This document shows, one piece after another, positions 14,501 to 29,415 of a stretch of 64,000 nt of DNA. Positions within the stretch are counted from its first letter, which is position 1. The number at the start of each line of letters is the position of its first letter. The position numbers and the translations under genes are program-made. A model generated the notes under the pieces. It made no database searches and was not told the origin of the DNA. It was given only the letters and a program-made list of their open reading frames with translations. The DNA lies in the NCBI RefSeq assembly GCF_013256625.1, contig NZ_CP053908.1, forward strand, positions 3,410,001 through 3,474,000, given 5' to 3'. The stretch is from Hymenobacter sp. BRD128. GTDB taxonomy: Bacteria > Bacteroidota > Bacteroidia > Cytophagales > Hymenobacteraceae.

Positions 14501-17500
14501 AACTAACATTATTGTGAACGGGATGGCCTATACACCTACTACGGCCAACACTATCGACTTCGGCACCGCCGCCGCATTGGCTAACGGCGCCAGCAATGCC
14601 TTCACGTTTAGCTTCACCCCGGCCACCACGGCTACGGGTAGTGTAGCTATTACGAGCAACGTGACAACGACAACCCAGCAGGGGAGCAATGTCGCTCCGG
14701 ACGCCTCGACCATTACCGCCGCAGTGGCCCCGACGGCCGACGTATTCACGACCGTGACGGCTACTACCACTTCGGTAGCGGCCGGGACGCTGGCATCGGC
14801 CGGCACGCCGCCCAAGTTCACGGTGGTTTTCAACAACAACGGTCCCGCTACGGCAGCCGGCGTGGTAGCTGCCGTGCAGCTGCCCAAGGGCCTGACCAAC
14901 GTAACGGCTACCAACGGCGGCGTGTACAACAGCGCAACGGGCGTCGTAACGTACTCGGGGCTGACTTCTATCGCCAGCGGCACCCCAACCACTTCCGTTA
15001 TCACGTTCGATGCCCCGGCCACCGGCCCGGTAGTGGCCGCAGCCACCGTTTCGACGACGACCAGCGAGGCCGGTCAAACGGCTAATAATACGGCCAACGC
15101 GGCCATGACCATTACGCCGGCCTTCGACCTGGCTACCACGCTCACGGGTCCGACCTCGGCCGTAGCCGGCGACCCGGTAACCCTGGCGGTAACCACGACC
15201 AACAACGGCCCCAGTGCCGTAGCCAACGCCGTGCAAACCCTGCAGCTGGTAAGCGGCCTGACTAATGTGTACGTGAGCAATGGCGGTGTTTATAACCCTT
15301 CGACTTCTACCCAGACCTTGGTAGCGAACGGAGTTAGCTACACGGTACCAGCCGGCGGCGTTGTTTTCCCCACCCTGCCCAACGTACCCAGCGGCCAGAC
15401 GGTGGCCAACACCGTGAGCTTTGCTATGCCCAGCGCGCCGTTTGCGCCGACGGCTCTGGTAACGCCCAACACTGCCTCCAGCGCCACTACGGCCGGCGAT
15501 ACCAACCTCGCTAACAATGCGGTTGGCATCAACGGCAGCACGAGCGCTAGCCCGGCTTCGATAAGCGTAAGCACCACCGCTGCCGGCACGGCCAATGCCT
15601 ACACCAAAATCAGCTCATCGGTGGCGAGCACTACGGTGGGCAGCAACGTTACGCTGACCGTTATCACGGGCAACAATGGTCCTAGCCAGGCTACTGGCGT
15701 TACGCAAACCGTGCAGATTCTGCCCGGCCTGCAAGGCAGCATCAGCGTAGGGGGTAGCACCACCAGCACCACTGCTGGAAACGTGGTGACCTTCACGAAC
15801 GGCACGGCCAGCGGGGCTACTTACAACACGCAGACCGGCATTGTAACCTTCCCCACGCTGGCCAATGGCACGAACGGCAGCACGAGCGGCACGAGCGTGA
15901 GCAACACGATTTCGTTTGCGGCGCCGGCCTCTACGGGCAGCAACGGCCAGCTGCTGGCTACTGCTACGGTAAGCACTTCTAATACCGACCCCGTACCGGC
16001 CGACAACGTAGCGGCGGTAGCCGTTACGCTGCTGCAATCGACCGACCTGGCCACGACTATTTCGGGCCCGGCCTCGGCTACGGCCGGCCAGCCGGTTCAG
16101 TATACCGTGACCTTCCTCAACAACGGCCCGATGGCCGCCACCGGCGTGACGGAAACGGCGCAGCTGCCCGCCGGCCTGGCCAGCGTGACCATTACCGATG
16201 GCGCAGGCACTGCCGTGAGCGGCGCTACCTATACTGCTGCTACCGGCCTGGTTACCTTCCCCACCCAGGCCAATGACCCCAACGGGGCCACGCAGGTATT
16301 CAAGCTGTCTTTCGCTGCCCCGGCACTGAGCTTCAGCCCCAGCAGCAGCGTTGGCTCGAGCAGCTCCGACGCCGTACCGGCCAATAACAACGCCAGCGTA
16401 GCCACTACGGTAGCGGCCTCGGCCGACCTAGCTACCACGGTAAGCGGCCCGGCTACCGCCGTGGTGGGCAATGCGGTTACCTACTCGGTGAACACCACTA
16501 ATAACGGCCCCTCAATAGCGGCCAATACGGTCACGACCTTACAACTGGCCACTGGCTTTACGCCGGCCACGTTGCAGGTAGGCGGGCAGACGGGTACGCT
16601 GAGCGGCAACGTTATTACCTACGGCAGCGGCGCTACTTACAACACGAGCACCGGCCTGGTTACCTTCCCGGCCGTTGCCAACCTAGCCAACGGCCAGACG
16701 GTGAGCAACTACGTAACGTATGTGATGCCCAACGCAACCGGTGGCCAAACCACCGGGGTTGCCTCCGCCAGCTCGGCAGCAGCCGACCCGATTGCCAGCA
16801 ACAATACCAGCAGCGTAGCAACCAGCATTGCCCCGACAACCACGACTTCGGCTGATGTTACGGCCGCGGTATCGGCCTCGGCCAGCTCTGTCAATGCCGG
16901 CACAGCGGTAACGTTTACGGCTACTTACGGCAACATTGGTACCGACCCGGCCGTGAATGTGCGGCCTACGCTGCAGCTGGTGCCTGGCCTGACTACTACC
17001 AGCATTCAGGTAGCGGGGCAGACGGGCACGCTGAGCGGCAACGTTATAACGTTTGGCAACGGTGCTACCTACAACACGACCAGCGGCCTGTTGACCTTCC
17101 CCACTATCGCCAGCCAGGCTAGCGGCAGCACCGGCAATGTCAGCTATCAGGTGCAGGTAACGGCCCCGACGAACGGGCCGCTGCTGGCTACCGCTGCCAC
17201 GACTACCGACACCAGTGAGCCGGCTACGGCGGCTGCCCAGGCCAACAATGTGAACAGCGCCAGCGTCGGGATTACACCCGTATTCGACGAGGTGACCAGC
17301 ATCAGCGGGCCAGCCTCGGCCCTGCCCGGCACCAGCCAGACGTATACCGTAACGACGACCAACAACGGCCCCTCGCTCACGGCTAATACTACTACGCAAA
17401 CGGTAACGCTGCCCAGTGGCCTCACGCCCACCAACATCACAAACGGTGGGGTATACTCGAGCACCAGCAACACCATTACCTGGACGGTGCCCGCCGGCCA

Positions 17501-18995
17501 AGCGCCTGGCAGCAACGGCGCCGTGGCCAACAGCTTCACGGTGACCCAACCCGCTGGCAGCCTTACGCTCACGGCCAACGTTACGGTAACCGGCGAAAGC
17601 AACACGGCCAACAACAGTGCGACGATTACTACTACGGCTACCAACCAGCCCCCGCTGGCTTACGCCGTGGTGAACACGCTGCAAAGCCCCATGGGCAACA
17701 CCGCTGCCAACAACAGCGCCACGCCCAATGGCTTGCTCATTTCGCCGCTCGCGGCTTCCGACCCTCAAAACGCCCTCAGTGCCACAACGCCCTTTACCAT
17801 CGTGAGCATCCCCCCTACCTCCCAGGGCGTTCTGTACTACAGCACCAACGGTACCAGCACGGGCACTTACGCTGCCGTGGCAGCCAATCAGACGCTAACC
17901 GCCGCCCAGGCTACTACCCTTCGCTTCCTGCCCAGTACGTCGTTCGTAGGCAACGCCTCCTTCACGTACCTGGCCACCAATGCGGCGGGTGCTCAGTCGC
18001 CGGTTGTGGAGTATACCATTCCGGTGGCCGCCGACCAGCCAACCTCCTACGTGAAGTATAACGACACGAAAGGCGGCACTAACACTAATAAGTATGTAAC
18101 CAATGACATCCTGGCGCAAGTAACTGACCCTAACACGGCCGTTTATACCGCAGGGGGCTTGATTTACAATGCCACGACTGGTGTTTTGCAAAGTGGAGCG
18201 GCTAATGGCTTGCCCACCACCGGCACCAACGCGGTGCTGGCCTCGGGTACCCTGCCAGCTGGTGTAAGCCTTAATCCAACTACCGGCACCATCTACGTAA
18301 GCAACGCTAGCCTACTGGCTAATAACCCTACGGCGCAGACCTACACCGTATCGGTTACAACCACTGACAGCAATGGCGGTACCAACACCACGCCTGTTTC
18401 CTTTGTCATCGGGGCTTACCCGCTGCCGGTGGAATTGACGGCCTTCACGGCTTCGGCCGTGCAAAACCGCGACACCAAGCTGAGCTGGACCACCGCTTCG
18501 GAACTCAACAGCGCCTATTTTGACGTGGAGCGTAGCCTCGACGGCTTGGCCTTCACCAAAATTGGCCAGGTAGCAGCGCAAGGCACTGTAACGGTTGCGA
18601 CGAACTACACCTTCACCGACCTGAACGCGGCACGCCTGGCCCAGGGCCCGGTGTACTACCGCCTCAAGCAGGTAGACTTCGACGCCAAGGCTAGCTACTC
18701 GCCTGTGCGCTCGGTTAGCTTCACCAAAGCCGGCACGGTGGCCCTGAGCCTCTACCCCAACCCGGCCCAGAGCGCCACAACCCTCGACCTGAGCCAGCTG
18801 CCGACCACCGGCACCTACCAGGTGCAGCTACTCGATGCCACCGGCCGCCTGGTGCGCTCGGCTAGCCTCGGCGGTGGCCTGGCCCAGTCGCTGGACCTGC
18901 ATGAGCTGGCTACCGGCACCTACCACGTACTCGTGACGGGTACCCTGGCCGACGGCTCGACCCTACGCCAGACCCTGCGCCTTACCAAGGAATAA
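11508..18995 (+). CDS. Giant T9SS-secreted repeat protein (DUF11 repeats, glycine-rich domain)
   Basis: 2495 residues. The N-terminal signal (LWAMLLLFGATHAFAQ) is followed by a lectin-like region to about 315, one DUF11 domain (DLSTTIAGPTTALAGQTITY), a second unique region with a glycine-rich segment at about 727-890 (GGGGGANGGTGG), and eight further DUF11 domains from about 950 to 2050, recognised by TTNNGPS motifs. Cadherin-like repeats follow, then LPVELTAFTA near 2304, a fibronectin-like domain, and a C-terminal T9SS type A sorting domain starting SLYPNPAQ near 2413. It should be exported and attached to or released from the cell surface, probably as an adhesin or matrix protein. No partner gene adjoins it. 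Confidence 0.9.
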   Translation: MRPTLRLLFAWPTLASPGRPFRSTWLWAMLLLFGATHAFAQTPALEFAPNGNGVNNPTGNGPSTADQAITFQNNTDNPTGNTFAAYSVPITTTFSLSNQAYTTVASVPTTNTGTSFGATINGGTSAIAFALYPTMDAQFTGTYPSATYTSNATSGAGVGIDPTTNHGTSLYNSVQALQGKGITAASTRFAYSTVTITFSQPTVNPVIQIVDLGGNTGRVGFTTDLDLITAGVTLSELSGSTGFAVTAAQISNSNTTYPAGNFVSGSVLVTTPAAGITSLQFRLYIHGDGTGRWPIAGEAQAGDVFYLATSAVTPTDLSTTIAGPTTALAGQTITYTATTTNAGASAAGTQSTITLPSKPATVTTSANGSYDATTGVVTFTNGTVAPGTTVTNTVSFVALGSSVTGRAASTTTSTDANPSNNDGSAANANVTTTLTPTGAAGTPAPCANPGKDGAVAGLLTTPNTYYPSIASQTLTGGTSTTIAVGAARGAANNITAGDLLLVIQMQGAAIDATNTDSYGDGVAGGPANGNTATNFTAGTYEYVTVASSTTTAAAGGTITLTSALKNSYSNTTATTTAGQRTFQVIRVPQYTNLTLAANISPVAWNGNTGGIVVLDVAGKLNLAGFTIDASGLGFRGGAGRRLTGDNSGTTSGTDYRSSAMLNTGGTKGEGIVGTPRYVNDPAYAAANNGVLLDTRAPATTGYPTLLPPTLNDGYPSGDNGRGAPGNAGGGGTDAHPSANDQNTGGGGGANGGTGGRGGNSWNSNSPVGGEPGAAFSVTSSSRLTLGGGGGAGVTNDGTGTPGNGFASSGAAGGGAVLIRTGILSGTGSILANGTNANNTVNNDGSGGGGAGGSILLTVAVSQSATLTLSANGGIGGTNTGGGVSHGPGGGGGGGVILTNNNVTATATANGGANGTTVPGAIAFGAAPGTTGIANPAISTSIANSTAGANCVADVTTALTGPSTVIAGQPTGTYTATFTNEGPQAASNVTRQVTLPTGATNIIVNGMAYTPTTANTIDFGTAAALANGASNAFTFSFTPATTATGSVAITSNVTTTTQQGSNVAPDASTITAAVAPTADVFTTVTATTTSVAAGTLASAGTPPKFTVVFNNNGPATAAGVVAAVQLPKGLTNVTATNGGVYNSATGVVTYSGLTSIASGTPTTSVITFDAPATGPVVAAATVSTTTSEAGQTANNTANAAMTITPAFDLATTLTGPTSAVAGDPVTLAVTTTNNGPSAVANAVQTLQLVSGLTNVYVSNGGVYNPSTSTQTLVANGVSYTVPAGGVVFPTLPNVPSGQTVANTVSFAMPSAPFAPTALVTPNTASSATTAGDTNLANNAVGINGSTSASPASISVSTTAAGTANAYTKISSSVASTTVGSNVTLTVITGNNGPSQATGVTQTVQILPGLQGSISVGGSTTSTTAGNVVTFTNGTASGATYNTQTGIVTFPTLANGTNGSTSGTSVSNTISFAAPASTGSNGQLLATATVSTSNTDPVPADNVAAVAVTLLQSTDLATTISGPASATAGQPVQYTVTFLNNGPMAATGVTETAQLPAGLASVTITDGAGTAVSGATYTAATGLVTFPTQANDPNGATQVFKLSFAAPALSFSPSSSVGSSSSDAVPANNNASVATTVAASADLATTVSGPATAVVGNAVTYSVNTTNNGPSIAANTVTTLQLATGFTPATLQVGGQTGTLSGNVITYGSGATYNTSTGLVTFPAVANLANGQTVSNYVTYVMPNATGGQTTGVASASSAAADPIASNNTSSVATSIAPTTTTSADVTAAVSASASSVNAGTAVTFTATYGNIGTDPAVNVRPTLQLVPGLTTTSIQVAGQTGTLSGNVITFGNGATYNTTSGLLTFPTIASQASGSTGNVSYQVQVTAPTNGPLLATAATTTDTSEPATAAAQANNVNSASVGITPVFDEVTSISGPASALPGTSQTYTVTTTNNGPSLTANTTTQTVTLPSGLTPTNITNGGVYSSTSNTITWTVPAGQAPGSNGAVANSFTVTQPAGSLTLTANVTVTGESNTANNSATITTTATNQPPLAYAVVNTLQSPMGNTAANNSATPNGLLISPLAASDPQNALSATTPFTIVSIPPTSQGVLYYSTNGTSTGTYAAVAANQTLTAAQATTLRFLPSTSFVGNASFTYLATNAAGAQSPVVEYTIPVAADQPTSYVKYNDTKGGTNTNKYVTNDILAQVTDPNTAVYTAGGLIYNATTGVLQSGAANGLPTTGTNAVLASGTLPAGVSLNPTTGTIYVSNASLLANNPTAQTYTVSVTTTDSNGGTNTTPVSFVIGAYPLPVELTAFTASAVQNRDTKLSWTTASELNSAYFDVERSLDGLAFTKIGQVAAQGTVTVATNYTFTDLNAARLAQGPVYYRLKQVDFDAKASYSPVRSVSFTKAGTVALSLYPNPAQSATTLDLSQLPTTGTYQVQLLDATGRLVRSASLGGGLAQSLDLHELATGTYHVLVTGTLADGSTLRQTLRLTKE

Positions 18996-19011
18996 GCCCT
19001 TGAGACTAGCT

Positions 19012-19047
19012 AAAAAACCTCCCTGCCGCTGGCAGGGAGGTTTTTTT
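19012..19047 (+). terminator. Terminator of the giant surface protein gene
   Basis: AAAAAACCTCCCTGCC pairs with GGCAGGGAGGTTTTTT around a gct loop, followed by T. It begins 16 bases after the stop codon. Confidence 0.88.
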
Positions 19048-19114
19048 ATACCCGACCCAGACTGGCCCCAGTCCCGTACGCGTATCCGTTCTTTGCACTT
19101 TCTATTTTCTGTTT

Positions 19115-19609
19115 ATGTCCGAATCAACTTCTCCTAGCCTCACCCACGTCGGTCCCGGCGGCCTGCCCGCCATGGTCAACGTCGGCGGCAAGGCCGTGAC
19201 GGCCCGGCTAGCCCGCGCCCGCGCCCGGGTCGTGCTCGGGGCCGAAATTCTGAAGCTAGTGCAGGCCGGCGACCTGCCCACCCGCAAGGGCCCGGTATTT
19301 CAAACGGCCATTATTGCCGGCGTGATGGCAGCTAAAAAGACGGCCGACCTCATCCCCCTCTGCCACCCGCTGGGCCTCGACGATTGCCAGCTCACCATCG
19401 AAGTAGTGCAGCCCGATGCTATTATTATTGAGTGCACGGCCCGCGTCACGGGCAAAACCGGCATCGAGATGGAAGCTCTCACCGGCGCCTCGGTGGCGGC
19501 CCTCACGGTGTACGATATGTGCAAAGCCATGTCGCACAACATCGTAATTGAGCAAGTGCGGCTGGTGGAGAAAACGGGCGGCAAGTCGGACTTTCACCAC
19601 GAAGGCTAG
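19115..19609 (+). CDS. moaC: Cyclic pyranopterin monophosphate synthase MoaC
   Basis: 164 residues, full length. MoaC converts 3',8-cyclo-7,8-dihydro-GTP, made by MoaA, into cyclic pyranopterin monophosphate, the first stable intermediate of molybdenum cofactor. Family signatures are MVNVGGKAVTARLARA near residue 20, LIPLCHPLGLDDC near 80, and GKTGIEMEALTGASVAALTV with YDMCKAM near 120-140. It is transcribed towards moaE, apart from the other moa genes here, and has its own promoter region (TTCTTTGC near 19089). Confidence 0.96.
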   Translation: MSESTSPSLTHVGPGGLPAMVNVGGKAVTARLARARARVVLGAEILKLVQAGDLPTRKGPVFQTAIIAGVMAAKKTADLIPLCHPLGLDDCQLTIEVVQPDAIIIECTARVTGKTGIEMEALTGASVAALTVYDMCKAMSHNIVIEQVRLVEKTGGKSDFHHEG

Positions 19610-19639
19610 CCCAGCATTTCGGGTTAATATCATTTTAAA

Positions 19640-19678
19640 CACAAACGCCGCGCACTCTGAGAGTGCGCGGCGTTTGTG
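19640..19678. terminator. 18-bp perfect hairpin between moaC and moaE
   Basis: The arm at 19640-19657 (CACAAACGCCGCGCACTC) is exactly complementary to 19661-19678 with a tga loop. It ends at the moaE stop codon and so serves convergent genes. No long T-run follows, but the stem is very stable. Confidence 0.75.
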
Positions 19679-20095
19679 CTAGGGATGGGCGGCTACCCAC
19701 ACGGTACCGTCTTCATACTCCTCCTTCTTCCAGATGGGCACCACTTCCTTCAGCGTGTCGATAATGTATTGGCAGGCGGCGAAGGAGTCGGCGCGGTGCG
19801 GCGTAGACACGGCCACTACTACGGCCACGTCGCCGATTTCGAGGGTGCCGTGGCGGTGCACCACGGCTACCTGGCGCAGCATGGGCCACTTTTCCTGGGC
19901 CATTTCGGCCACGCGGCGCAGCTGGTGCACGGCCATGGGCGGATAGGCCTCGTAGTGCAGGCGCACCACACGGCGGCCGTCGCTGCGGCTGCGCACGGTG
20001 CCGATGAAAGCATTTACGGCGCCGGCCTCGTCCGATTCGGCAGCTTGCAGCACGGCAGCCACGTCGATAGCGTGGTCAACTAAGTCGATAAGCAT
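19679..20095 (-). CDS. moaE: Molybdopterin synthase catalytic subunit MoaE
   Basis: 138 residues. MoaE inserts dithiolene sulfur, carried by MoaD, into cyclic pyranopterin monophosphate. Typical motifs are GAVNAFIGTVR near residue 26, LHYEAYPPMA near 46, VVHRHGTLEIGD near 80, and IWKKEEYEDGTVW near 122, which holds the catalytic lysines. It is the last gene of the minus-strand molybdenum series, 28 bases after moaD. Confidence 0.96.
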   Translation of the reverse strand: MLIDLVDHAIDVAAVLQAAESDEAGAVNAFIGTVRSRSDGRRVVRLHYEAYPPMAVHQLRRVAEMAQEKWPMLRQVAVVHRHGTLEIGDVAVVVAVSTPHRADSFAACQYIIDTLKEVVPIWKKEEYEDGTVWVAAHP

Positions 20096-20123
20096 TGGTC
20101 AGTTTCTAAAGCTCGAACAACGG

Positions 20124-20366
20124 CTAGCCCCCGCTCACGGGCGGAATCAGCGCGATTTCATCGCGCTCGTGCAAGGGCACATCTTCGGCAGCGTATTCAT
20201 TGTTGACGGCCACGGCCAGGCTGCGCAGGCCGGCCAGTGCGGGGTATTGGGTGCGTAGGTCGGCCAGCAGGCCGGCAGCCGACTGCCCAGCTGGTGCAGC
20301 CACTTGCAGCGACGACTGCCCCACGATTTCGCGGGCAATGCCAAAAAGGGCAACGGTAAGGTTCAT
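20124..20366 (-). CDS. moaD: Molybdopterin synthase sulfur carrier subunit MoaD
   Basis: 80 residues with a ubiquitin-like fold. The C-terminus is DEIALIPPVSGG; the final Gly-Gly is adenylated by MoeB and thiocarboxylated before MoaE uses it. It starts MNLTVALFGIAREIVG, as in other MoaD proteins. It lies between moaA and moaE, and the AT-rich palindrome at 20376-20448 separates it from moaA. Confidence 0.95.
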   Translation of the reverse strand: MNLTVALFGIAREIVGQSSLQVAAPAGQSAAGLLADLRTQYPALAGLRSLAVAVNNEYAAEDVPLHERDEIALIPPVSGG

Positions 20367-20375
20367 CTTGTCAAT

Positions 20376-20448
20376 TATCAGTTATCAATTGTCAGTTGTT
20401 AGTTATCAGCTAAGTCATCACCTGATAAGTGGTAATTGATAACTGATA
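20376..20448. repeat. AT-rich palindromic element with 15-bp perfect arms
   Basis: TATCAGTTATCAATT (20376-20390) is matched exactly by AATTGATAACTGATA (20434-20448). The inside is also built of iterated GTTATCA/GTCAGTT words. It lies in the 93-base gap between moaA and moaD and is much more AT-rich than the genes on either side, suggesting a small inserted element. Confidence 0.65.
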
Positions 20449-20459
20449 CTTGACGAAGG

Positions 20460-21476
20460 CTAGCCGCCAATCGTGGCCATGCTCTCAAAATTGAGTTGGT
20501 GCACCGGGCGCTGGCTTTCGGCCTCGAAGCCGTTGGCGGCGCGGTGGTAAAAGGCGCTGGCCAGCGCTTCGGCAATGGCCGTATCGGTGGCGCCGCCGCG
20601 CAGCAGGGCCCGCACATCGAGCACGCCCTGGTCGTAGAGGCAGGTTTTGATGCCGCCTTCGGCCGTGAGGCGCAGGCGGTTGCAAGTGCCGCAGAAGGTG
20701 CGCGAGTAGGCCGCGATGATGCCCACCCGGCCCTGGTGGCCGGCAATAGTATACTCGCTGGCCGTGGCGCCGGTGGCGGTATAGGCCGGCACAAGGTCGC
20801 CTAAGTGCGCCTCCAGGTGCTGCCGGATGCGGCGGTGGTTCCAGGGCAGCGACTCGGGCGTGGCCACGTGGCTACCGCCGTTGAAGGGCATTTCCTCGAT
20901 GAAGCGCACTTCGACGGGCAGGCCGCGGCTGAGCTCGGCCAGGGGCACCAGGTCCTGGATGTTGCGGCCATCCATTACCACGGCATTGATTTTCACTTGG
21001 ATACCAGCGTCGAGCAGCGCGTAGAACGTGCGCATGACCTGCGGCAGCTCGTCGCGGCGGGTTATCTCACAAAACCGCTGGCGGTCCAGCGTATCAAGGC
21101 TGAGGTTGACGGCTTTCACACCCATGCGGGCCAGGGCCGGTACGTGGGGCGCGGTGAGCACGCCGTTGGTCGTGAGGCTGAGGTCGTCGATGCCGGGCAG
21201 GGCGGCCAGGCGCTCCATGAAGGGCACCAGGTCGCGCCGCACGAAGGGCTCGCCGCCGGTGAGACGCACCTTGCGCACCCCCAGGCCAGCCAGAATACCG
21301 ACCAGGCGTAGCATTTCCTCGCAGCTAAGCAGCTCGTGCTTAGGCATGTACTTAATACCTTCCTCGGGCATGCAGTAGAAGCAGCGCAGGTTGCAGCGGT
21401 CGGTAATGGCCAGGCGCACGTATTCGAGCGGCCGGCCGTGGGCGTCGTATAGCACGGAGGAGGAGGGAAAAGACAT
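20460..21476 (-). CDS. moaA: GTP 3',8-cyclase MoaA (radical SAM)
   Basis: 338 residues. MoaA rearranges GTP to 3',8-cyclo-7,8-dihydro-GTP using S-adenosylmethionine. The radical SAM cluster motif CNLRCFYC lies near residue 30, then KVRLTGGEPFVRRD near 70. The second iron-sulfur site is CGTCNRLRLTAEGGIKTC near 265-282. The protein ends TIGG, the C-terminal Gly-Gly needed by this family. The -7 word TATATTTG sits five bases before the ATG. Confidence 0.97.
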   Translation of the reverse strand: MSFPSSSVLYDAHGRPLEYVRLAITDRCNLRCFYCMPEEGIKYMPKHELLSCEEMLRLVGILAGLGVRKVRLTGGEPFVRRDLVPFMERLAALPGIDDLSLTTNGVLTAPHVPALARMGVKAVNLSLDTLDRQRFCEITRRDELPQVMRTFYALLDAGIQVKINAVVMDGRNIQDLVPLAELSRGLPVEVRFIEEMPFNGGSHVATPESLPWNHRRIRQHLEAHLGDLVPAYTATGATASEYTIAGHQGRVGIIAAYSRTFCGTCNRLRLTAEGGIKTCLYDQGVLDVRALLRGGATDTAIAEALASAFYHRAANGFEAESQRPVHQLNFESMATIGG

Positions 21477-21481
21477 CTAGC

Positions 21482-21489
21482 CAAATATA
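21482..21489 (-). promoter_or_regulatory. -7 element (TATATTTG) directly upstream of moaA
   Basis: On the minus strand TATATTTG matches TAnnTTTG fully and ends five bases before the moaA ATG, so transcription from here would start at or beside the start codon. It could give moaA-moaD-moaE an internal promoter. Confidence 0.45.
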
Positions 21490-21656
21490 CTGCGGGGGCT
21501 AGCTGGCCCGAAAGCGGCCGGCCGCACCAGCCCTGCCTACGCGGCCACGGCCGGGCAGGTTGATGCGCCCTTGGCTAGTAGAAGTCTTTTCCGGGAGGAA
21601 TTGTTGCACTTGCGGCCACTAAGCTAATGCTCAGCTCCACCACGCGGCGAAGGAGG

Positions 21657-22757
21657 CTAGCCGGGGTAGTCTTCGAGGCCGCCGCGCAGGGTCAGCACAT
21701 TATCGTAGCCCAGCTCGCGGCGCAGCAGGTCCACGGCTTTGGCGCTGCGCACGCCGCTCTGGCAGTACACCACCACCGGGCGGGTACGGGGCACCTCGGC
21801 GGCGCGGGCGGCTAGCTCGGGCAGGGGCAGCAGCACGGCGCCCGGCAGGTGGCGGCGCTGGTATTCGAGCGGGCCGCGCACATCGAGCAGCAGCGGCGGC
21901 GCGGCCGAGGCCAGCCGCTGGCGCAGGTCGTCGGCCGAGAGGCTGATAGCCTGGACTTCGGGGGCGCAGCTCACGTCGAAGTAGTCGGCGGGGCTAGCGG
22001 TGTCGAGGTTAATTTGACTCTGCGCCGCGTCGCGCTTGAAGCGCAGCGTGCGGCTCTGGAAAGTGAGCGTGTCGAGCAGCCAGAGGCGGCCGCTGAGCAC
22101 GTCGCCCAGGCCCAGCACCACCTTCAGGGCCTCGGTGGCCTGCACCGTGCCAATGAGGCCGGGCAGCACATTGAGCACGCCGGTGGTGTTGCAGTCGGGT
22201 GCCTCGGCGGCGCTCGGCGGCTCGGGGAACAGGCAGCGGTAAGTAGGCCCGCCCGCATAATTAAACACCGAAACCTGGCCCTCAAACTTGTAGATGGCGC
22301 CCGACACCAGCGGCCGGCCCAGGCTCACGCAGGCATCGTTGAGCAGGTAGCGCGTGGGGAAGTTATCGGAGCCATCGACCACTACGTCGTAGCCGGCCAC
22401 CAGCTCGCGCACGTTTTCAGGACTTACGCGAATGGGGTGCAGGTTGTAGGTATTCAGCTCGTTGAGTCGTTTTAGGGCGCGGGCGGCGGCTTCCACCTTA
22501 GGTTGGCCCACATCGGCGGGGCCGTAGAGAATCTGGCGGGGCAGGTTGGTCAGCTCCACCTTGTCGGCGTCGGCGAGGCCTAGCGTGCCCACGCCGGCAG
22601 CGGCCAGGTATTGCAAAATGGGGCAGCCCAGGCCGCCCGCGCCTACCACCAGCACGCGGGCCGCGCGCAGGCGCTGCTGGCCGGCTTCGCCGACTTCGGC
22701 CAGCTGCAGGTGGCGGCGGTAGCGCTGGCGCTCGGCGGCGGAGAATGGGTGTGACAT
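21657..22757 (-). CDS. moeB: MoeB/ThiF-type adenylyltransferase with C-terminal rhodanese domain
   Basis: About 366 residues. The E1-like domain (VLVVGAGGLGCPILQYLAAA near residue 40, GSDNFPTRYLLNDAC near 130) adenylates the MoaD C-terminus. The rhodanese domain from about 270 (PPLLLDVRGPLEYQRRHLPG, active-site loop VVYCQSGVRSAKA) could deliver sulfur, so both steps are fused. Instead of the paired CxxC zinc ligands of E. coli MoeB I see only single cysteines (TYRCLF, VSCAPE). The start is the ATG at 22757, not the TTG six codons upstream. It is flanked by moaA and the TonB-dependent receptor. Confidence 0.9.
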   Translation of the reverse strand: MSHPFSAAERQRYRRHLQLAEVGEAGQQRLRAARVLVVGAGGLGCPILQYLAAAGVGTLGLADADKVELTNLPRQILYGPADVGQPKVEAAARALKRLNELNTYNLHPIRVSPENVRELVAGYDVVVDGSDNFPTRYLLNDACVSLGRPLVSGAIYKFEGQVSVFNYAGGPTYRCLFPEPPSAAEAPDCNTTGVLNVLPGLIGTVQATEALKVVLGLGDVLSGRLWLLDTLTFQSRTLRFKRDAAQSQINLDTASPADYFDVSCAPEVQAISLSADDLRQRLASAAPPLLLDVRGPLEYQRRHLPGAVLLPLPELAARAAEVPRTRPVVVYCQSGVRSAKAVDLLRRELGYDNVLTLRGGLEDYPG

Positions 22758-22829
22758 GGCGTTTCTTTTTTGCAAAAGAAGATTAGCGCCGGAAAGTTGC
22801 AGCCCCCCTGGCCCCGCGGGGGTGGGGCC

Positions 22830-25523
22830 TCACAGCCCGTAGCTCACCGTGAGGTAGTACAGCCCACCCACGCTGGGCCCGCCGAGATAAGTCACGTAGT
22901 AGCTGTTCAACACATTGCTGGCCCCCAGCTTGAACCGCACCTGGGCCGCGGGCACGTAGTAGCTCAGCTGCGCATCGAGCGAGCTGAAGGCGGGCACACT
23001 GCCGTTCACGAGGAAGGTTTGGGAATAGTAGCTGACTTGGTGGCGAAAATTAAGGCCGAAGCCGAAGTTGCGGTAGGCGTTTTCGTTGGCCAGGCTCAGG
23101 TTGTATAGCCACTGCGGGGTGTTGAAGCCGTCTTCGAGGCCATCGCCGTTTTCGGTGCGGTCGAGGCGGGTGTAGGTGGCGTTGGCGCCGGCCAGGTAGC
23201 CCCTGGCCATGTTGTAGCGCAGGCCGGCCGAGCCGCCGTAGTTGTACACCTGGCTCTGCGAGTTGGTCCAGAGGCGGTAGCGGGCCTGGCCGGTGGTGGT
23301 GCTACCCGCGGGTATAGTCGTAGTATTCAGCGCCGTAGCTATCGCATTGAGGTCAGTGCCGGTGTTCAGCGCCACGCCGCTGGTGGTCTGCGGCACGTAG
23401 GCTTCGACTTGGGCAATGAAGTCGCGGTACGAATTATAGTAGAAATCGACATCGACCAGCAGCCGGCCGCCCGGGCCCAGCGCCGCCTTGTAGCCAGCTT
23501 CAAGCGAGCGGATATACTCGGGCTTGATGTAGGTGTAGGGGTTTTTGACGAGCAAGCCCTGATTGGCCGCCACGGCCTGGGCGCGGGTCTGGGCCGGCGT
23601 GCCGTTGATGCCGGCCGTCACGGCGGCGTTGAAGCGGTCGATGCTGCTGCGCAGGTAGCTGTTCTCAAACACGCCGTCGCTCATCACTCGCAGGCCGCCG
23701 ATGCGCTTTACCTGGCCGCTGTTCACGTTGGAAAAGCCTTCAAACAAGCTCGGAAAGCGGTAGCCGCTCTGGTAGCTGAGGCGGAAATTCTGGCGCTGCG
23801 TGGGCGAGTAGACGGCCGTGAAGCGCGGGTTGAATTTCACGTTGAAACAGTCGTTCTTATCGACCCGCAGCGTGGCCGTGAGGCGCAGCTTTTCTTCAAA
23901 CAGCCGCCCGCCCGCCTGCACAAAGCCGCCGGTTTTGGAGTACGTGAGGTTGTCGTTGAGCGGGTCTTTGCCGGGGTTGGGGTTGATGAAGTAGTTGCCA
24001 TCGGGCACCACGAGGTAGGTGCGGTGGTCGGCCCCGGCCAGTAGGTCGAGGCTAGCCGGCAGGGCGGTGCCGCCGCGCCGCAGGGCCTCGGCCAGGTTTA
24101 CCTGGGCTTCGGCGTGGGCCAGGTTGGCGCGCACGCGCAGGGCGGCGCCCACGTCCCAGTTGTTGATGTCCTGGAGCTGGCTCAGGCGCTGGTTGAAGGC
24201 ATCGGTGCCGGACTGGAGGCGGCCGGCATCGGCAGCCGCGCGGGCGGCGCGGTGGGCCTCGGCCACGCCCAAGCCACTCTTGGTAGCATTGTTCCAGGCC
24301 GTGGTATAATCGCCGTACCACTGGGTGTCGGGCTTGTAGCTGCGGTCGATGTTTTCGCCCATCGAGCGCAGGTTGTAGCTCTTGCCGGTGTTTTCTTCGG
24401 TAAAATAGGCGCGGGCCTGCACCACTGGCGAGGTGAAGGTGAGCGCGTGCTGCTGCAAGAGGTAGTCTTGCAGCCGGAAGCGGTTCGCGCGCTGGTACAC
24501 GTTGTCGAAGCTAGCCACGCGGTAGGTGTAGGCCAGCTCGGTGCCGGGCCGGAAGCGGTAGTGCAGCGCACCGTCGGCCTTGAGCGTTCGCACGTTGTAG
24601 TCCACCAGGTCGCGCTCGTCGTAGCCGGTGCGGGCCACCTGGTAGCTTTTGCCCCCCAGCGTAATATTCTTGCGGTCCGACGACTCGTTGCCGTAGCGGC
24701 TCACTTGGTCCTGGGCCGGGTTGTCGGCCCCAAACAGGCCGGTGGTGGCGTTGCCGGTGGGGTTGATGTCGGTCTGGTCGTTGGCAATCCAGTCGTAGGC
24801 CCGCAGGTATCTGGCGTTCACCTTGAAGGCTAGCCGGTCAGTCACCAGCACCTTCGCGTAGCGCACGCTGGTTTCGGAATAGCTTTTCACCGGCGAGCCA
24901 TTCTCGCCAAACGTCTTGGCATTGGGGTCGTTCACGTGGTTGACGCCCGTTTGCTGGCGCACGCTCAGCCCCTCCGAGTTGAAAGGATTCTTCGTCTGAA
25001 AGTTGGCTAGCCCATTAATAGCATTCAACCCATAAAGCGCGGCGGCGGTGCCGGGCACCAGCTCCACGCGCTGAATATCGAGGTCGCTCGGTCCCAGCAC
25101 GTTGCCGATGGGCCCGCCGATGTGCGGCGCCTGGTTGTCCACGCCATCCACGAGCTGGGCAAAGCGCACGTTGGTGGTATTGGTGAAGCCGCGCGCGTTA
25201 ATCACCTTAAACCCAATGCTGGGCGTAATCACCTGCACGCCCTTCAGATTATCGATGGCGTCGAAAAACGAGGGCGCGGGCGACAACCGAATGGCGCGGG
25301 CGTTGAGCTTCTCCACCGTCACCGGCGACTGCAAAAAGCTCTCCTCCACCCGCGAGGCCGTCACAACCACCTCTTTGAGGTCGGTGCGCAGCGTGTCGGC
25401 GGGCGGCGGGCGGCGGGCTAGCCCCGGCTGCGGCTTGGTAGCCTGGGCGGCGGCAGCCTGGGCCAGCGCCAGCACCGAGGCGCACGCCACCGAGCCGCGC
25501 AGCATGCGTAGCTTATTGCTCAT
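22830..25523 (-). CDS. TonB-dependent outer-membrane receptor, candidate molybdate-complex importer
   Basis: 897 residues. The signal peptide ends near ALAQAAAAQ. There is no carboxypeptidase-like N-terminal domain; the plug begins soon after (LKEVVVTASRVEESFLQSPV) and contains GFKVINARGFTNTTNVRFAQ, LVDGVDNQAPHIGG and IQRVELVPGTAAALYG. A 22-strand barrel and a C-terminus ending YYLTVSYGL follow. It imports some ligand using TonB-ExbBD energy. It sits between a small molybdopterin-fold protein and moeB, downstream of a ModE-type operator, so a molybdenum or tungsten complex is the favoured ligand by context only. A siderophore-like or other role is not excluded. Confidence 0.85.
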   Translation of the reverse strand: MSNKLRMLRGSVACASVLALAQAAAAQATKPQPGLARRPPPADTLRTDLKEVVVTASRVEESFLQSPVTVEKLNARAIRLSPAPSFFDAIDNLKGVQVITPSIGFKVINARGFTNTTNVRFAQLVDGVDNQAPHIGGPIGNVLGPSDLDIQRVELVPGTAAALYGLNAINGLANFQTKNPFNSEGLSVRQQTGVNHVNDPNAKTFGENGSPVKSYSETSVRYAKVLVTDRLAFKVNARYLRAYDWIANDQTDINPTGNATTGLFGADNPAQDQVSRYGNESSDRKNITLGGKSYQVARTGYDERDLVDYNVRTLKADGALHYRFRPGTELAYTYRVASFDNVYQRANRFRLQDYLLQQHALTFTSPVVQARAYFTEENTGKSYNLRSMGENIDRSYKPDTQWYGDYTTAWNNATKSGLGVAEAHRAARAAADAGRLQSGTDAFNQRLSQLQDINNWDVGAALRVRANLAHAEAQVNLAEALRRGGTALPASLDLLAGADHRTYLVVPDGNYFINPNPGKDPLNDNLTYSKTGGFVQAGGRLFEEKLRLTATLRVDKNDCFNVKFNPRFTAVYSPTQRQNFRLSYQSGYRFPSLFEGFSNVNSGQVKRIGGLRVMSDGVFENSYLRSSIDRFNAAVTAGINGTPAQTRAQAVAANQGLLVKNPYTYIKPEYIRSLEAGYKAALGPGGRLLVDVDFYYNSYRDFIAQVEAYVPQTTSGVALNTGTDLNAIATALNTTTIPAGSTTTGQARYRLWTNSQSQVYNYGGSAGLRYNMARGYLAGANATYTRLDRTENGDGLEDGFNTPQWLYNLSLANENAYRNFGFGLNFRHQVSYYSQTFLVNGSVPAFSSLDAQLSYYVPAAQVRFKLGASNVLNSYYVTYLGGPSVGGLYYLTVSYGL

Positions 25524-25550
25524 GCTTACTTCTTGCTTACTTCTTGCTTA
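25524..25550. repeat. 11-base tandem repeat before the receptor start codon
   Basis: The word TGCTTACTTCT is repeated twice plus a partial copy (plus-strand reading) directly upstream of the TonB-receptor ATG at 25523, in the 35-base gap after the preceding gene. Slippage here would change the spacing ahead of the start codon. Confidence 0.5.
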
Positions 25551-25558
25551 AGAACTGT

Positions 25559-26092
25559 TTATTGCACTTTCACCACGCGCAGACCGGTGAGCTGGCGCAC
25601 CCAGCGGGCGGGCTTTTTTTCGAGCGGCACGATGAGCTGGTAGGGGCCGTCGTGGGCGGGCAGGGGCTGGCCGTCGCGCAGGTCGGCCAGTAGGATAGTC
25701 TGGGGCGAGAAATCGGCGTCGATTTCGGGCAGCGCAAACACAGCCTGGTAGCCGTCGGCGGCGCTGGCCAGCACCACCTCGGCCAGCACCGCGCCGTGAA
25801 TGCCCTTGCCCTCGGGCACGCCGGCCAGGTGCAGCACGTCGCGCAGAGCCACGCCGCGGTACGCGTGCATTTTGCCGTCTTTGTCGGTAGTGGTTTGCTC
25901 GCGGTGAGGCAAGGCGGCGATTTCGGCGGCGCTGAGCGTGCGTGGGGTAGCGACCAGGCCTTCGATACGTAGCTGCGCGGCGGCGGTCGGCGTGGCGCTC
26001 TGCGCATAAATCACTGGCCCAGTGAGACTAGCACCCGTCAGCACCAGAGCGGCGGCCACAAGTTTTTGGCAGCCGGCAGGAAAAAGTAGCAT
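25559..26092 (-). CDS. Small exported sulfite-oxidase-fold (molybdopterin-binding-like) protein
   Basis: 177 residues. The signal peptide is LVAAALVLTGASLTGPVIYA. The mature part has the stand-alone oxidoreductase molybdopterin-binding fold (PF00174 type): LRIEGLVATPRTLSAAEIAALP, AYRGVALRDVLHLAGVP, DGYQAVFALPEIDADF, PLPAHDGPYQLIVP and WVRQLTGLRVVKVQ. Full SUOX/YedY enzymes use a cysteine as molybdenum ligand, but the only cysteine here is in the signal peptide. It may therefore bind cofactor or ligand without redox catalysis. It lies between a ModE-like regulator and the TonB receptor, with a ModE-type operator 20 bases upstream of its start. Confidence 0.75.
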   Translation of the reverse strand: MLLFPAGCQKLVAAALVLTGASLTGPVIYAQSATPTAAAQLRIEGLVATPRTLSAAEIAALPHREQTTTDKDGKMHAYRGVALRDVLHLAGVPEGKGIHGAVLAEVVLASAADGYQAVFALPEIDADFSPQTILLADLRDGQPLPAHDGPYQLIVPLEKKPARWVRQLTGLRVVKVQ

Positions 26093-26111
26093 GTGGGGGA
26101 ATAGGAAAGCT

Positions 26112-26135
26112 CGTTATATTTCAACGAATATAACG
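26112..26135 (-). promoter_or_regulatory. ModE-type operator palindrome
   Basis: CGTTATATT (26112-26120), six bases, AATATAACG (26127-26135): a perfect 9-bp inverted repeat. It closely resembles the E. coli ModE sites described as CGTTATAT...ATAACG upstream of modABCD. It lies between the ModE-like gene and the small SUOX-like gene, 20 bases from the latter's start. The minus-strand word TATATTCG (26125-26132), a near match to the -7 element TAnnTTTG, falls inside it, so a bound repressor would block transcription. Confidence 0.8.
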
Positions 26136-26169
26136 GAGGGCGCAGCCGATTGTTTATCTTTTTTCGGAA

Positions 26170-26529
26170 TTACTGGTACAGTCGAGCTGTCTCGTCGGCC
26201 AGGAACTGCGCGAAGCGCGTTTGCATAGCCCGGAACTCGGCCACGGCCTGCGCGCCGGCTTCGGTGAGGGTGGCGCCGCCGCCGTGGGCGCCGCCGGCGT
26301 GGGCCCCCACCAGGGGCTGCCGCGCCTGCGCATTCATGGAACTCACTAAATCCCAGGCTTTTTTGTAAGACATCCCCATTTCCTTGGCCGCCTTCGAGAT
26401 GGAGCCGGTGGCCTCGATGCGCTCCAGCAGCTCCAGCCGGCCGATGCCCAGAAAGCGGTCGGCCGGGCCTTCTATCCAGAGGCGGCCGTTGGCGCGGAAG
26501 GCTTGATTTTCGGCAAAAAGCTTGTGCAT
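26170..26529 (-). CDS. ModE-like winged-helix regulator without molybdate-binding domain
   Basis: 119 residues. The sequence matches the DNA-binding half of ModE: RFLGIGRLELLERIEATGSI then SKAAKEMGMSYKKAWDLVSS, VGAHAGGAHGGGATLTEAG and AVAEFRAMQTRFAQFL. E. coli ModE is about 260 residues, with two molbindin domains that sense molybdate; these are absent here. The signal must come from another protein or from the wing itself. The frame is open upstream, but the ATG at 26529 (MHKLFAENQAF) fits the family. It is the first gene of the minus-strand molybdenum series. Confidence 0.87.
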   Translation of the reverse strand: MHKLFAENQAFRANGRLWIEGPADRFLGIGRLELLERIEATGSISKAAKEMGMSYKKAWDLVSSMNAQARQPLVGAHAGGAHGGGATLTEAGAQAVAEFRAMQTRFAQFLADETARLYQ

Positions 26530-26582
26530 AAGAAGCAAGCAGTAAAAAGCAGCAGGAGCGCAAAAATAGCCCACCGGCAGCC

Positions 26583-26606
26583 GGCCGCCGCAAACCTGCG
26601 GCGGCC
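26583..26606. repeat. GC-rich hairpin in a divergent intergenic region
   Basis: GGCCGCCGCA (26583-26592) pairs with TGCGGCGGCC (26597-26606) around aacc. It lies between the ModE-like gene and the thioredoxin-reductase-like gene. It may be a structured leader of the regulator transcript. Confidence 0.4.
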
Positions 26607-26666
26607 CGGCACGGTATAGTAGGCGGCCGCCGGCTTCACGGCTAGCCTTTGGCAAACGATATTTTT

Positions 26667-27601
26667 ATGGAGTACGATGTGCTGGTAGTAGGCGCTGGCA
26701 GCGCCGGCTTGAGCGCCGCCCTTACTTTGGCGCGCTGCCGCCGCCGCGTACTGGTGGCCGATGGCGGAGCCCCGCGCAATGCGCCCTCGGGGGCGTGCAC
26801 GGCTTTTTGACTCACGATGGCATCCGACCGGCCGAGCTGCTGCGCCTGGGCCGCGCGCAACTCGCCCCCTACCCTACTGCGGAAGTACGCGAACTGAAAA
26901 TCGACCGCATTGTTCGCCAAGGGCCGGGCTTTGAGGCCACCGGCACCACCAGCCAGGGCCACGCCTGGACCGGCACCGCCCGCCGGGTGCTGCTGGCCAC
27001 CGGGGTAGACGATATGCTACCGCCGCTGCCGGGTTTTCGCGAGCTGTGGGGCACGGGCGTGCTGCACTGCCCCTACTGCCACGGCTATGAGGTGCGCGAC
27101 CAGCCGCTGGCTATTTATGGGCAGGGGAAAACCGTGCTGGGCCTGGCGCTGCTGCTCACCAACTGGAGCCGCGACCTGGTGGTGGTCACCGATGGCCCCG
27201 GCCACCTCACCGACCACGGCCGGCAGCGGCTGCATCGGCACGGCATTGGCGTGCGCGAAGAGCCAGTGGCGCGGCTGGTGGGCGAGCCCAACGGCACCCT
27301 GCGCTGCGTCGAATTTGCCGATGGCACCTACCTGGAGCGCACCGCCCTGTTTATGCACGCCCCACAGGAGCAGCGCAGCCCCCTGGCTGCCGAGCTAGGG
27401 GCGCGCCTAACCAGCAAAGGAGCCATTTGGGTAGATAAAAATGCCCAGACCTCCGTGCCCGGCCTGTACGCGGCCGGCGACATGGTGCCCGGCCAGCAGC
27501 AGGCTATGCTAGCCGCCGCCGAGGGCAACAAAGCCGGTATCTGTCTCAACGAGGCGCTTACCCGCGAAGACGTGCATAAGCCCGGGGCGGGCAAAAAATA
27601 A
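26667..27601 (+). pseudogene. FAD-dependent thioredoxin-reductase-like oxidoreductase, frameshifted
   Basis: The first frame, from the ATG at 26667, reads [20 protein letters not shown], the FAD-binding GxGxxG, then [12 protein letters not shown], and hits a stop within about 47 codons. The homology continues at once in another frame as [16 protein letters not shown] to the stop at 27601. One extra G in the G5 run at 26789-26793 would join them into about 311 residues. Downstream are LLATGVDDMLPPLPG, the redox motif CPYCHG and GLYAAGDMVPGQQQAMLAAA, all normal for this family. Either a real inactivating deletion or a base-calling error in a homopolymer. Confidence 0.85.
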
Positions 27602-27608
27602 GGTGGCC

Positions 27609-27995
27609 TCAGCCCCCGGCCAGCCAGGCGTGCGCGGCGGCTTCGTCGATGAAAGTGGCAATCTGGCAATCGGTATCGGCGGCCGAAACCACGGCCATTA
27701 CCGGCTGCCCGGCGCGCAGCGGCGACACCAGGAAGGCTAGCCGGACGGCCTCGTGGTAGCGCCCGCGCAAAGCCGGTGCGAAGGTTTGGCCAAACCAGGT
27801 GTTGACGGTGGGCTCGGTGAGGTCTTCGCGGCGGCGCAGGTCGAGCAGCCAGCGGGCACAGGCGGCCGCATCGGCCGCAGCTAGCAACGACTCGTAGCCG
27901 GCTTGCAGCTCGGCGGGCGTCACCTCGCGGTGCCAGCGCGCGATAAGCGCCGGCAGGTCAGGGCGATGCAGCAGGTCGAGGCCGTGGTTAGTCAT
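27609..27995 (-). CDS. Conserved hypothetical protein, SpoIIAA/STAS-like
   Basis: 128 residues, no signal peptide or membrane span. The alternation of short strands and helices (ACARWLLDLRRREDL, VRLAFLVSPLRAGQPVMAVV, IATFIDEAAAHAWLAG) recalls SpoIIAA/STAS-like proteins often annotated as hypothetical in Cytophagales, where the end reads like FxDEAAAxAWL. The assignment is weak. It is convergent with the frameshifted oxidoreductase and divergent from the MFS gene. Confidence 0.55.
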   Translation of the reverse strand: MTNHGLDLLHRPDLPALIARWHREVTPAELQAGYESLLAAADAAACARWLLDLRRREDLTEPTVNTWFGQTFAPALRGRYHEAVRLAFLVSPLRAGQPVMAVVSAADTDCQIATFIDEAAAHAWLAGG

Positions 27996-28070: not shown

Positions 28071-28113
28071 CCCCGTTGGGCAGTTAGTATTTCTTTTGCC
28101 CCTTTCGTCATCT

Positions 28114-29415
28114 ATGAGCCCCAGTGCCCCAGCCGCTACCCCGCACGACCCCTACGCCGCCCTACGTATCCCCGATTTTCGCCGCTACATTACGGCTCGC
28201 GCCTTGTTTTCAATAGCTACCCAAATTCAAGGCGTAGTAGTGAGCTGGCAGATTTTTAAGCTTACCGGCGACCCGCTGGCCCTGGGCCTCATTGGGCTGG
28301 CCGAGGCCATTCCGAGCATCACGGTGTCGCTCTACGCCGGGCACGTGGCCGACTCGGTGCGGCGCAAGCGCATTGTGGTGCCAGCCGTGGTGGTGCTGTT
28401 TCTGTGCGCCGTTACGCTCTGGTGGCTGGCGCACCCGCTGCAAGCAGCCCTGCTAGAAAAAGGTCGCCTGCACCTGAATTTTGCCCACGCCACCATCGTG
28501 TGGCCGCTGTACTTGGTTATTTTCGTGAGCGGCATTGCCCGGGGCTTTATGGGGCCGGCGCTGTTTGCTTTTATGCCGCAGCTGCTGCCCGACCGCAGCG
28601 TTCTGGCCAATGCCGTGACCTGGAGCTCGACCACCTGGCAGGGCTCGGCGGTGATAGGGCCGGCCATTGGGGGCTTGCTGCTGCACCTCAGTGTCGAGTT
28701 TGCCTACGGGGTCGATATGGTGATGGAGGGGCTAGCGCTGCTCTTTTTCATTAGTATTGCCAGCCGCGAGCTACCGCCCATCGAGGGCGAAAAGCTGAGC
28801 ATGGGCGAGAGCATTCTGAGCGGCATCAAGTTCATTTTCAGCAATCAGCTGGTGCTGGCGGCGCTTTCGCTCGATATGTTTGCCGTACTCTTTGGCGGGG
28901 CGGTGGCGCTGCTGCCCTTCTTTGCCGAAAATATTTTGCACGGCGGCCCCGATGCCTTTGGCTACCTGCGCGCCGCACCGGCCGTGGGCTCGGTGCTGAT
29001 GGCGGTATTTCTCACCTTTTCGCCCCTCAAAAAAGGCGCGGGCCGCAAAATGCTGTGGGCCGTGGCGGGTTTTGGCGCGGCTACCGTGGCCTTCGCGCTG
29101 TCCACCAATTTTTACTTGTCGTTGTTCCTGCTTTTCCTCACGGGCGTATTCGATTCGGTGTCGGTTATCGTGCGCCAGACGTTGGTGCATACCTACACGC
29201 CCGAGTACATGAAGGGTCGCGTATCGGCGGTGAACAGCATTTTCATCGGCTCCAGCAACGAAATTGGGGCCTTTGAGAGCGGGGCAGCGGCCAAGCTCCT
29301 CGGCACCGTGCCGAGCGTAGTTTTCGGCGGCCTGATGACTATGCTCGTGGTGGCCATCACGAGTTGGCGGGCCGACCAGCTACGCAAGCTCGAAATGGGA
29401 GCCGGGAAGAAATAG
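28114..29415 (+). CDS. MFS transporter, EntS-like (MFS_3) group
   Basis: 433 residues and about twelve membrane spans. Diagnostic parts are ALRIPDFRRYITARALFSIA at the start, LYAGHVADSVRRKRIVVPAV (the loop 2-3 motif of the superfamily), GPAIGGLLL, and FDSVSVIVRQTLVHTYTPEY followed by MKGRVSAVNSIFIGSSNEIG. This group includes EntS-type exporters of siderophores and other small molecules. A PepSY-type membrane protein lies convergent, which may hint at iron but is weak evidence. The ATG at 28114 is preferred over a TTG six codons upstream. Confidence 0.88.
   Translation: MSPSAPAATPHDPYAALRIPDFRRYITARALFSIATQIQGVVVSWQIFKLTGDPLALGLIGLAEAIPSITVSLYAGHVADSVRRKRIVVPAVVVLFLCAVTLWWLAHPLQAALLEKGRLHLNFAHATIVWPLYLVIFVSGIARGFMGPALFAFMPQLLPDRSVLANAVTWSSTTWQGSAVIGPAIGGLLLHLSVEFAYGVDMVMEGLALLFFISIASRELPPIEGEKLSMGESILSGIKFIFSNQLVLAALSLDMFAVLFGGAVALLPFFAENILHGGPDAFGYLRAAPAVGSVLMAVFLTFSPLKKGAGRKMLWAVAGFGAATVAFALSTNFYLSLFLLFLTGVFDSVSVIVRQTLVHTYTPEYMKGRVSAVNSIFIGSSNEIGAFESGAAAKLLGTVPSVVFGGLMTMLVVAITSWRADQLRKLEMGAGKK

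Follow-up and report, generated by a model that had tools for sequence, protein, structure and literature searches.

A predicted ModE-regulated TonB-dependent receptor for molybdenum in Hymenobacter sp. BRD128 and its relatives

A TonB-dependent receptor encoded among molybdenum genes of Hymenobacter sp. BRD128 is predicted, with a probability of about 0.7, to be a ModE-repressed outer-membrane importer of molybdenum, probably in the form of molybdate. The receptor gene (22830-25523, minus strand, 897 aa) lies in a 64,000-nucleotide stretch of contig NZ_CP053908.1 (positions 3,410,001 to 3,474,000), referred to throughout as the window, whose own numbering is used here. Many enzymes depend on molybdenum, an element in short supply in fresh water and soil, for which porins are usually considered the route across the outer membrane; to our knowledge, molybdenum is known as the cargo of no TonB-dependent pump. 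No TonB-dependent molybdate importer was found in searches of the open-access literature, regulon databases being outside the scope. In an initial annotation, the receptor, a short ModE, a SUOX-fold protein and genes for cofactor synthesis at 19115-26529 were proposed to form one system for the acquisition and use of molybdate. The predicted link between molybdenum regulation and the receptor, based on an operator and on conservation across genera and families, is well supported, and this part of the proposal stands; cofactor synthesis is not part of the conserved unit.

The ModE-type operator and its conservation with the receptor

A perfect inverted repeat, CGTTATATT-N6-AATATAACG, which was absent from the initial annotation, is located between modE and the SUOX-fold gene (26112-26135, minus strand, 0 mismatches), 34 nt past the modE stop codon and 19 nt ahead of the SUOX-fold ATG, and represents a predicted ModE-type operator. 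The consensus of the E. coli ModE site is ATCGNTATATA-N6-TATATANCGAT in the accessible part of PMC545781; the repeat has equal spacing and matches 14 of the 16 defined bases of its CG-to-CG part, and the outer AT/AT pairs are mostly not matched. It is the sole copy of this pattern (the box) with 0-2 mismatches in the genome. Two further sites were found at 3 mismatches, one of which, itself palindromic, lies upstream of a xanthine-dehydrogenase (XDH)-type operon and the other at 52447-52470 of the window. When the window was shuffled 100 times, zero matches at up to 3 mismatches were obtained.

Relatives of the receptor were collected from several sources. Matches at E 1e-40 or better were detected in 95 of 150 genomes of the family, and orthologues with at least 70% identity in 68 of them; a few relatives at 53-57% identity occur in one other genus, and paralogues have about 40-47%. 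The nearest named loci are those of Hymenobacter sp. CA2-7 and BT559, with receptors 93% identical. A scan of the genome collection, from which the best 80 of 208 receptor relatives were taken, yielded mostly Hymenobacter, together with Adhaeribacter, Solirubrum, Pedobacter, Mucilaginibacter and Flavobacterium. A class-wide search gave matches in 82 of 395 genomes, and the neighbour sample also took 60 places from this listing, of which some are on short contigs, as well as 14 loci of paralogues. In a FastTree phylogeny of 157 receptors, from which L081 was omitted because its frame was not clean, three parts were distinguished: a clade of 94 rows (95 loci including L081), a sister clade of 18 and 45 others. 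The clade that holds the window receptor spans several Bacteroidota families, with mostly Hymenobacter loci, and L142 and L176 are one locus. Molybdenum genes lie near 84 of its 94 rows, 10 have none, and cys genes adjoin none. Mapped on the tree, the molybdenum label required 10 changes, as compared with 52.1 in shuffles, and 0 of 500 shuffles were as low. The molybdenum clade and its sister each occupied one side of a fully supported branch in a mixture-model tree of 48 hand-chosen rows, and 44 alignment columns distinguish the two, the plug apex being of low confidence in the structural model.

The gene found most often beside the receptor encodes ModE, which is located upstream on the strand of the receptor in 74 of the 95 clade loci, at a distance of 393 to 2891 bases; at least one molybdenum gene or ModE is present in 85. 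Query-free clustering of all neighbours likewise ranked ModE first and placed three molybdoenzyme subunits in the top six. Receptors without ModE in Flavobacterium, Pedobacter and Mucilaginibacter (n = 3) adjoin molybdoenzyme and moaA genes. Neither molybdenum nor cys neighbours were found at the 45 outgroup loci. The other island genes are distributed more narrowly: moa genes occur in 13 of the 95 loci, of which 9, all in a single Hymenobacter clade, carry the moeB-moaADE-moaC set and 4 (3 distinct), from Flavobacterium, Mucilaginibacter and Pedobacter, carry moaA-type genes; SUOX-fold matches were found in 14. Judged from these distributions, the moa and SUOX-fold genes are lineage-specific, uptake, regulation and cofactor synthesis are not one conserved unit, and the eight-gene island as a whole was rejected in that role.

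The box was searched for at up to 3 mismatches in the 900 bases upstream of each receptor. It was detected in 70 of the 95 clade loci, 64 with ModE and 6 without, and the conserved unit, as predicted from sequence, is the short ModE, the ModE-type operator and the receptor. Conservation of the neighbourhood in relatives holds for ModE and the box, not for the eight-gene unit. Shuffled palindromic half-sites (n = 50) matched a mean of 0.04 loci and at most 1, and by the same upstream test the box was found at 0 of 18 sister-clade loci and 0 of 45 outgroup loci. A survey of 67 genomes of the genus revealed at least one box at up to 2 mismatches in 50 (exactly one in 39, two in 11) and none in 17; a reversed control pattern was found in 3 of these genomes. 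Among the matches listed, all 30 of 30 box loci of the genus adjoin the receptor, and therefore the receptor is the leading predicted target of ModE-type regulation in Hymenobacter. Elsewhere in the fetched loci (2.95 Mb) 11 boxes were counted, a small undercount because sites with the first three bases all mismatched were skipped; 8 precede an XDH-type operon by 240-360 bases, and one is a short distance upstream of moaA.

The position of the box relative to promoter elements bears on the direction of control. The motif TAnnTTTG, which we take to be the -7 promoter element of Bacteroidota, is directed toward the receptor inside 41 of 75 boxes and in the opposite direction in 8 (boxes at up to 4 mismatches). 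In the window the motif is TATATTCG, with a single deviating base, and the box is overlapped by a sigma-70-type match as well. Such an orientation bias is expected if the operator covers the promoter, and it favours repression through occlusion of the promoter. No peak was seen for a TTG motif at a constant distance upstream of the box, and such an element was rejected.

The receptor fold and the sulfate-linked sister clade

The receptor contains the plug (PF07715, 44.8 bits) and the beta-barrel (PF00593, 77.7 bits), both over their cut-offs. Its AlphaFold2 model has a mean pLDDT of 78.2 and a pTM of 0.79, with the plug partly of low confidence, and shows a helical insertion at about residues 385-451. 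The best Foldseek match of the model was Cir (9nn6, E 6.1e-29), and PirA, PfeA and BtuB were also matched. The window receptor resembles these proteins in having a plug and a barrel, by HMM and model, and differs from them in its molybdenum-linked neighbours, its helical insertion and an identity of 10-15%, so that the matches are generic. A search of solved structures with the receptor likewise returned three generic receptors; neither search, both being generic, names the cargo. The top NCBIfam models are those of heme and siderophore families, far below cut-offs.

A paralogue in the same genome (C1:2580151; L061:5822-8725) is 45% identical to the window receptor and belongs to the sister clade. 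This receptor gene is embedded among sulfate-assimilation genes: it is flanked by cysH, cysD, cysN, cysJ and sulfite reductase, with neither ModE nor the box. Sister-clade loci carried a sulfur label in 11 of 18 cases, no label in 7 and a molybdenum label in 0. Because 4 of the 11 rest solely on a TauE/CysG-like match, the clade is counted as having core sulfate-assimilation genes at 7 of 18 loci. Sister members from other families lie near TauE-like, Rrf2-like and, at 3 loci, chromate-transporter genes, names that were read by eye; the Chromate_transp domain was confirmed at L236. Sulfate, chromate and molybdate share a tetrahedral oxyanion structure, a similarity that hints at a possible family of receptors for anions of this kind. 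We tentatively extend this, at well under even odds, to a family of oxyanion pumps, in which a molybdate clade would be controlled by a single-domain ModE of undescribed sensing, most of its Hymenobacter carriers having no recognisable ModA, and a sulfate sister clade would reside in cys clusters and in certain species close to chromate transporters.

The island genes and the distant modABC locus

All eight genes of the island are present with the families given in the initial annotation, whose coordinates and strands agree with ours, and for each a Pfam match above the cut-off was obtained. Seven genes are on the minus strand and moaC is convergent to them. The moaC gene (19115-19609, plus strand) matched TIGR00581 with 170.9 bits (cut-off 141.5). 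On the minus strand follow moaE, for the large subunit of molybdopterin synthase (19679-20095; PF02391, 136.2 bits, over cut-off), moaD, for the small subunit (20124-20366; PF02597, 61.2 bits, over cut-off), moaA, for GTP 3',8-cyclase (20460-21476; TIGR02666, 340.5 bits, cut-off 284.05), and a moeB-rhodanese fusion for a MoaD adenylyltransferase/sulfurtransferase (21657-22775; PF00899 and PF00581; NF004281, 276.7 bits, over cut-off), for which an ATG at about 22757 is a likelier start than that at 22775. Beyond the receptor gene lie those of the small SUOX-fold protein (25559-26092, 177 aa; PF00174, 40.8 bits, cut-off 24) and the short ModE (26170-26529, 119 aa). The gaps on the minus strand measure 28, 93, 180, 54 (72 from the later moeB ATG), 35 and 77 bases, and hence the earlier range of 28 to 180 is right. 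Several matches fell below NCBIfam cut-offs: MoaD with TIGR01682 (64.7 bits against 66.15), MoaE with the E. coli-type NF007959 (100 against 175) and MoeB with TIGR02355 (209.4 against 376.55).

Where moaE and moaC converge, their 3' ends are separated by a perfect inverted repeat with 19-base arms and 1 base between them (19640-19678), a possible two-way terminator for both genes; a consensus terminator scan, which required a loop of 3-8 bases, did not list it. A molybdenum-cofactor riboswitch was rejected, as an Rfam scan of 18800-27800 at gathering scores gave no match. Transcription of moeB-moaADE from the predicted operator at 26112-26135 is possible. Five bases before the moaA start, TATATTTG (21482-21489, minus strand) was noted, which could be a separate promoter element for moaA if the transcript has no leader. 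Adjoining the island, 11508-18995 encodes a repetitive protein of 2495 residues with a signal-like start. Divergent from modE, a FAD/NAD(P) oxidoreductase gene (26640-27601, plus strand) is apparently frame-broken near its start, where a relative is open.

The short ModE consists of the DNA-binding domain alone (PF00126, 32.9 bits, over cut-off). Its N-terminal winged-helix domain matched TIGR00637 with an E value of 1.5e-23 and 82.7 bits, below the cut-off of 98.5, and with phmmer the nearest solved chain was 2ijl (E 1.2e-19), followed by E. coli ModE (1b9m, 1o7l).

SUOX-type molybdoenzymes hold molybdenum by a cysteine ligand. The window SUOX-fold protein has a single cysteine at residue 8, in an N-terminus that by eye resembles a signal peptide, and none outside the N-terminal region. 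A label as molybdoenzyme is therefore not supported, and the protein may be a periplasmic accessory. In an alignment of 14 SUOX-fold rows, of which L081 and L085 were read in wrong frames and L105 was truncated, no cysteine was common to all; one or two cysteines closer to the C-terminus are shared by L071, L076, L092 and L105. Relatives of this protein are encoded directly upstream of modA in 2 of 7 modA loci of another genus (L290:2277-2663 and L291:2268-2693), with PF00174 confirmed for the former. The demand for molybdenum is reflected in five XDH-family large subunits, two further PF00174 proteins and three PF00384 proteins in the genome, some of the latter possibly NuoG-like.

The observation that modABC is absent from the island was correct, yet the genome does encode these genes, at a distance of about 230 kb near C1 3.198 Mb. 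There, modA, modB and modC are preceded by a second TonB-dependent receptor gene of another kind (L007:6975-11915, C1 about 3.197-3.202 Mb), a relative of which is directly upstream in 12 of 14 Hymenobacter ModA loci. Ahead of modA, 7 of the 14 ModA-encoding Hymenobacter genomes, including this one, contain a weaker ModE-type site that departs from the E. coli consensus at 2-3 positions; in a control, 14 of 600 random pieces of the same loci did equally well. In BRD128 this site, located 30 bases upstream of modA, differs from the E. coli consensus at 3 positions and from the Hymenobacter pattern at 5. This suggests that modABC may belong to the same regulon.

Proposed mechanism, alternative explanations and significance

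Based on the observed genes, operator and conservation, and on the attachment of the clade to molybdenum genes as opposed to that of its sister to sulfate assimilation, a mechanism is proposed in which the cargo, the binding of ModE, its action as a repressor and not an activator, and co-transcription are predictions. The short ModE would bind the palindrome at 26112-26135, which is predicted to overlap the promoter of the SUOX-fold and receptor genes. With sufficient molybdenum, ModE would shut off both genes; when molybdenum is scarce, the receptor would be made and would import its cargo, most likely the molybdate anion and possibly a chelate, into the periplasm, powered by TonB. In this strain ModABC, encoded beside the second receptor, could carry molybdenum onward, and the products of the adjoining moeB-moaADE genes would build the cofactor.

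Several results weigh against this mechanism. ModE has no molybdate-binding Mop/TOBE domain, and PF03459 gave 0 matches in the genome (12 of 14 control genomes were positive). Of the 95 clade loci, 25 have no box at up to 3 mismatches, 21 have no ModE match and 10 no recognised molybdenum gene; among the last, five have the box, and of the remainder L157 and L141 have little upstream sequence. The neighbour queries were drawn from this clade, with lower sensitivity in distant families, and the clade loci, being mostly from Hymenobacter, are not independent. ModA above the cut-off was found in 22 of 150 family genomes, and 54 of the 68 genomes with a receptor of at least 70% identity have none, 14 having one. 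The moeB-moaADE genes may also have their own promoter.

A further point of this kind is that XDH-type molybdoenzyme genes tie the receptor to an enzyme in 27 of the 95 loci (16 of these 2.6-5 kb downstream), ModE and such an enzyme occurring together in 16 loci. This fits import of an organic substrate of an XDH/aldehyde-oxidase-type molybdoenzyme, with ModE coupling expression to the supply of molybdenum, as do the several ModE-less loci that retain the molybdoenzyme link alone and the palindromic 3-mismatch box of the XDH-type operon in this genome. We consider substrate import quite unlikely: such an enzyme is absent from the fetched stretch in 68 of the 95 loci, yet ModE is present in 74, the linked enzymes are of two types, the overlap of box and promoter suggests repression by ModE, and the tie of the sister clade to sulfate assimilation fits an oxyanion better. 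The same sister clade, which suggests a small oxyanion, counts against a variant of molybdenum import in which the receptor would take up a molybdenum chelate (with a catecholate, a molybdophore or another siderophore-like carrier) and not the free molybdate anion. In favour of this variant, bulky ligands are the usual cargo of known TonB-dependent receptors, the nearest folds belong to receptors for catecholates and cobalamin, and an MFS exporter-like gene is nearby in 10 loci (28096-29415 in the window); however, these fold matches are the generic ones at 10-15% identity, and no chelator-synthesis genes were recognised by eye among the recurrent neighbours. On balance a chelate seems unlikely, though it deserves some weight.

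Two other cargoes have little in their favour. Tungstate cannot be separated from molybdate by sequence, and ModA proteins bind both anions according to the accessible part of PMC9171197. The genome encodes five XDH-family large subunits. Enzymes encoded nearby belong to a type that uses molybdenum, and tungstate as the physiological cargo is accordingly very improbable. That the protein is an ordinary iron-siderophore or heme receptor merely beside molybdenum genes would agree with its best NCBIfam models; those matches are far below cut-offs, and the molybdenum association spans several families and includes the ModE-type box, which makes such a coincidence hard to credit.

The predicted ModE-repressed importer of molybdenum can be compared with known systems. 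The E. coli ModE-ModABC regulon has the same type of DNA-binding domain, operator half-sites and spacing. Unlike that regulon, the strongest predicted target here is an outer-membrane receptor, with a weaker site at modA, ModE is without molybdate-binding domains, and ModA above the cut-off is absent from most genomes with the receptor. A ModE with the DNA-binding domain alone is described in Desulfovibrio in the accessible part of PMC545781, where its sensing mechanism is called not clear; its site, CGGTCACG-N14-CGTGACCG, precedes mod operons, whereas here an E. coli-type site precedes the receptor. The T6SS-ModA-IcmP route of Pseudomonas aeruginosa (PMC8602904) is, like the one proposed here, an outer-membrane route for molybdate. 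It uses secreted ModA and outer-membrane IcmP, and the accessible part of that paper names no ModE-controlled TonB-dependent receptor.

If the prediction is true, a receptor dedicated to molybdenum and regulated by it would extend TonB-dependent transport to a further class of cargo, and a function would be assigned to a receptor present at no less than 70% identity in 68 of 150 genomes of the family. The defined operator and target would make sensing by a single-domain ModE testable, and the sulfate-linked sister clade offers a natural comparison for specificity.

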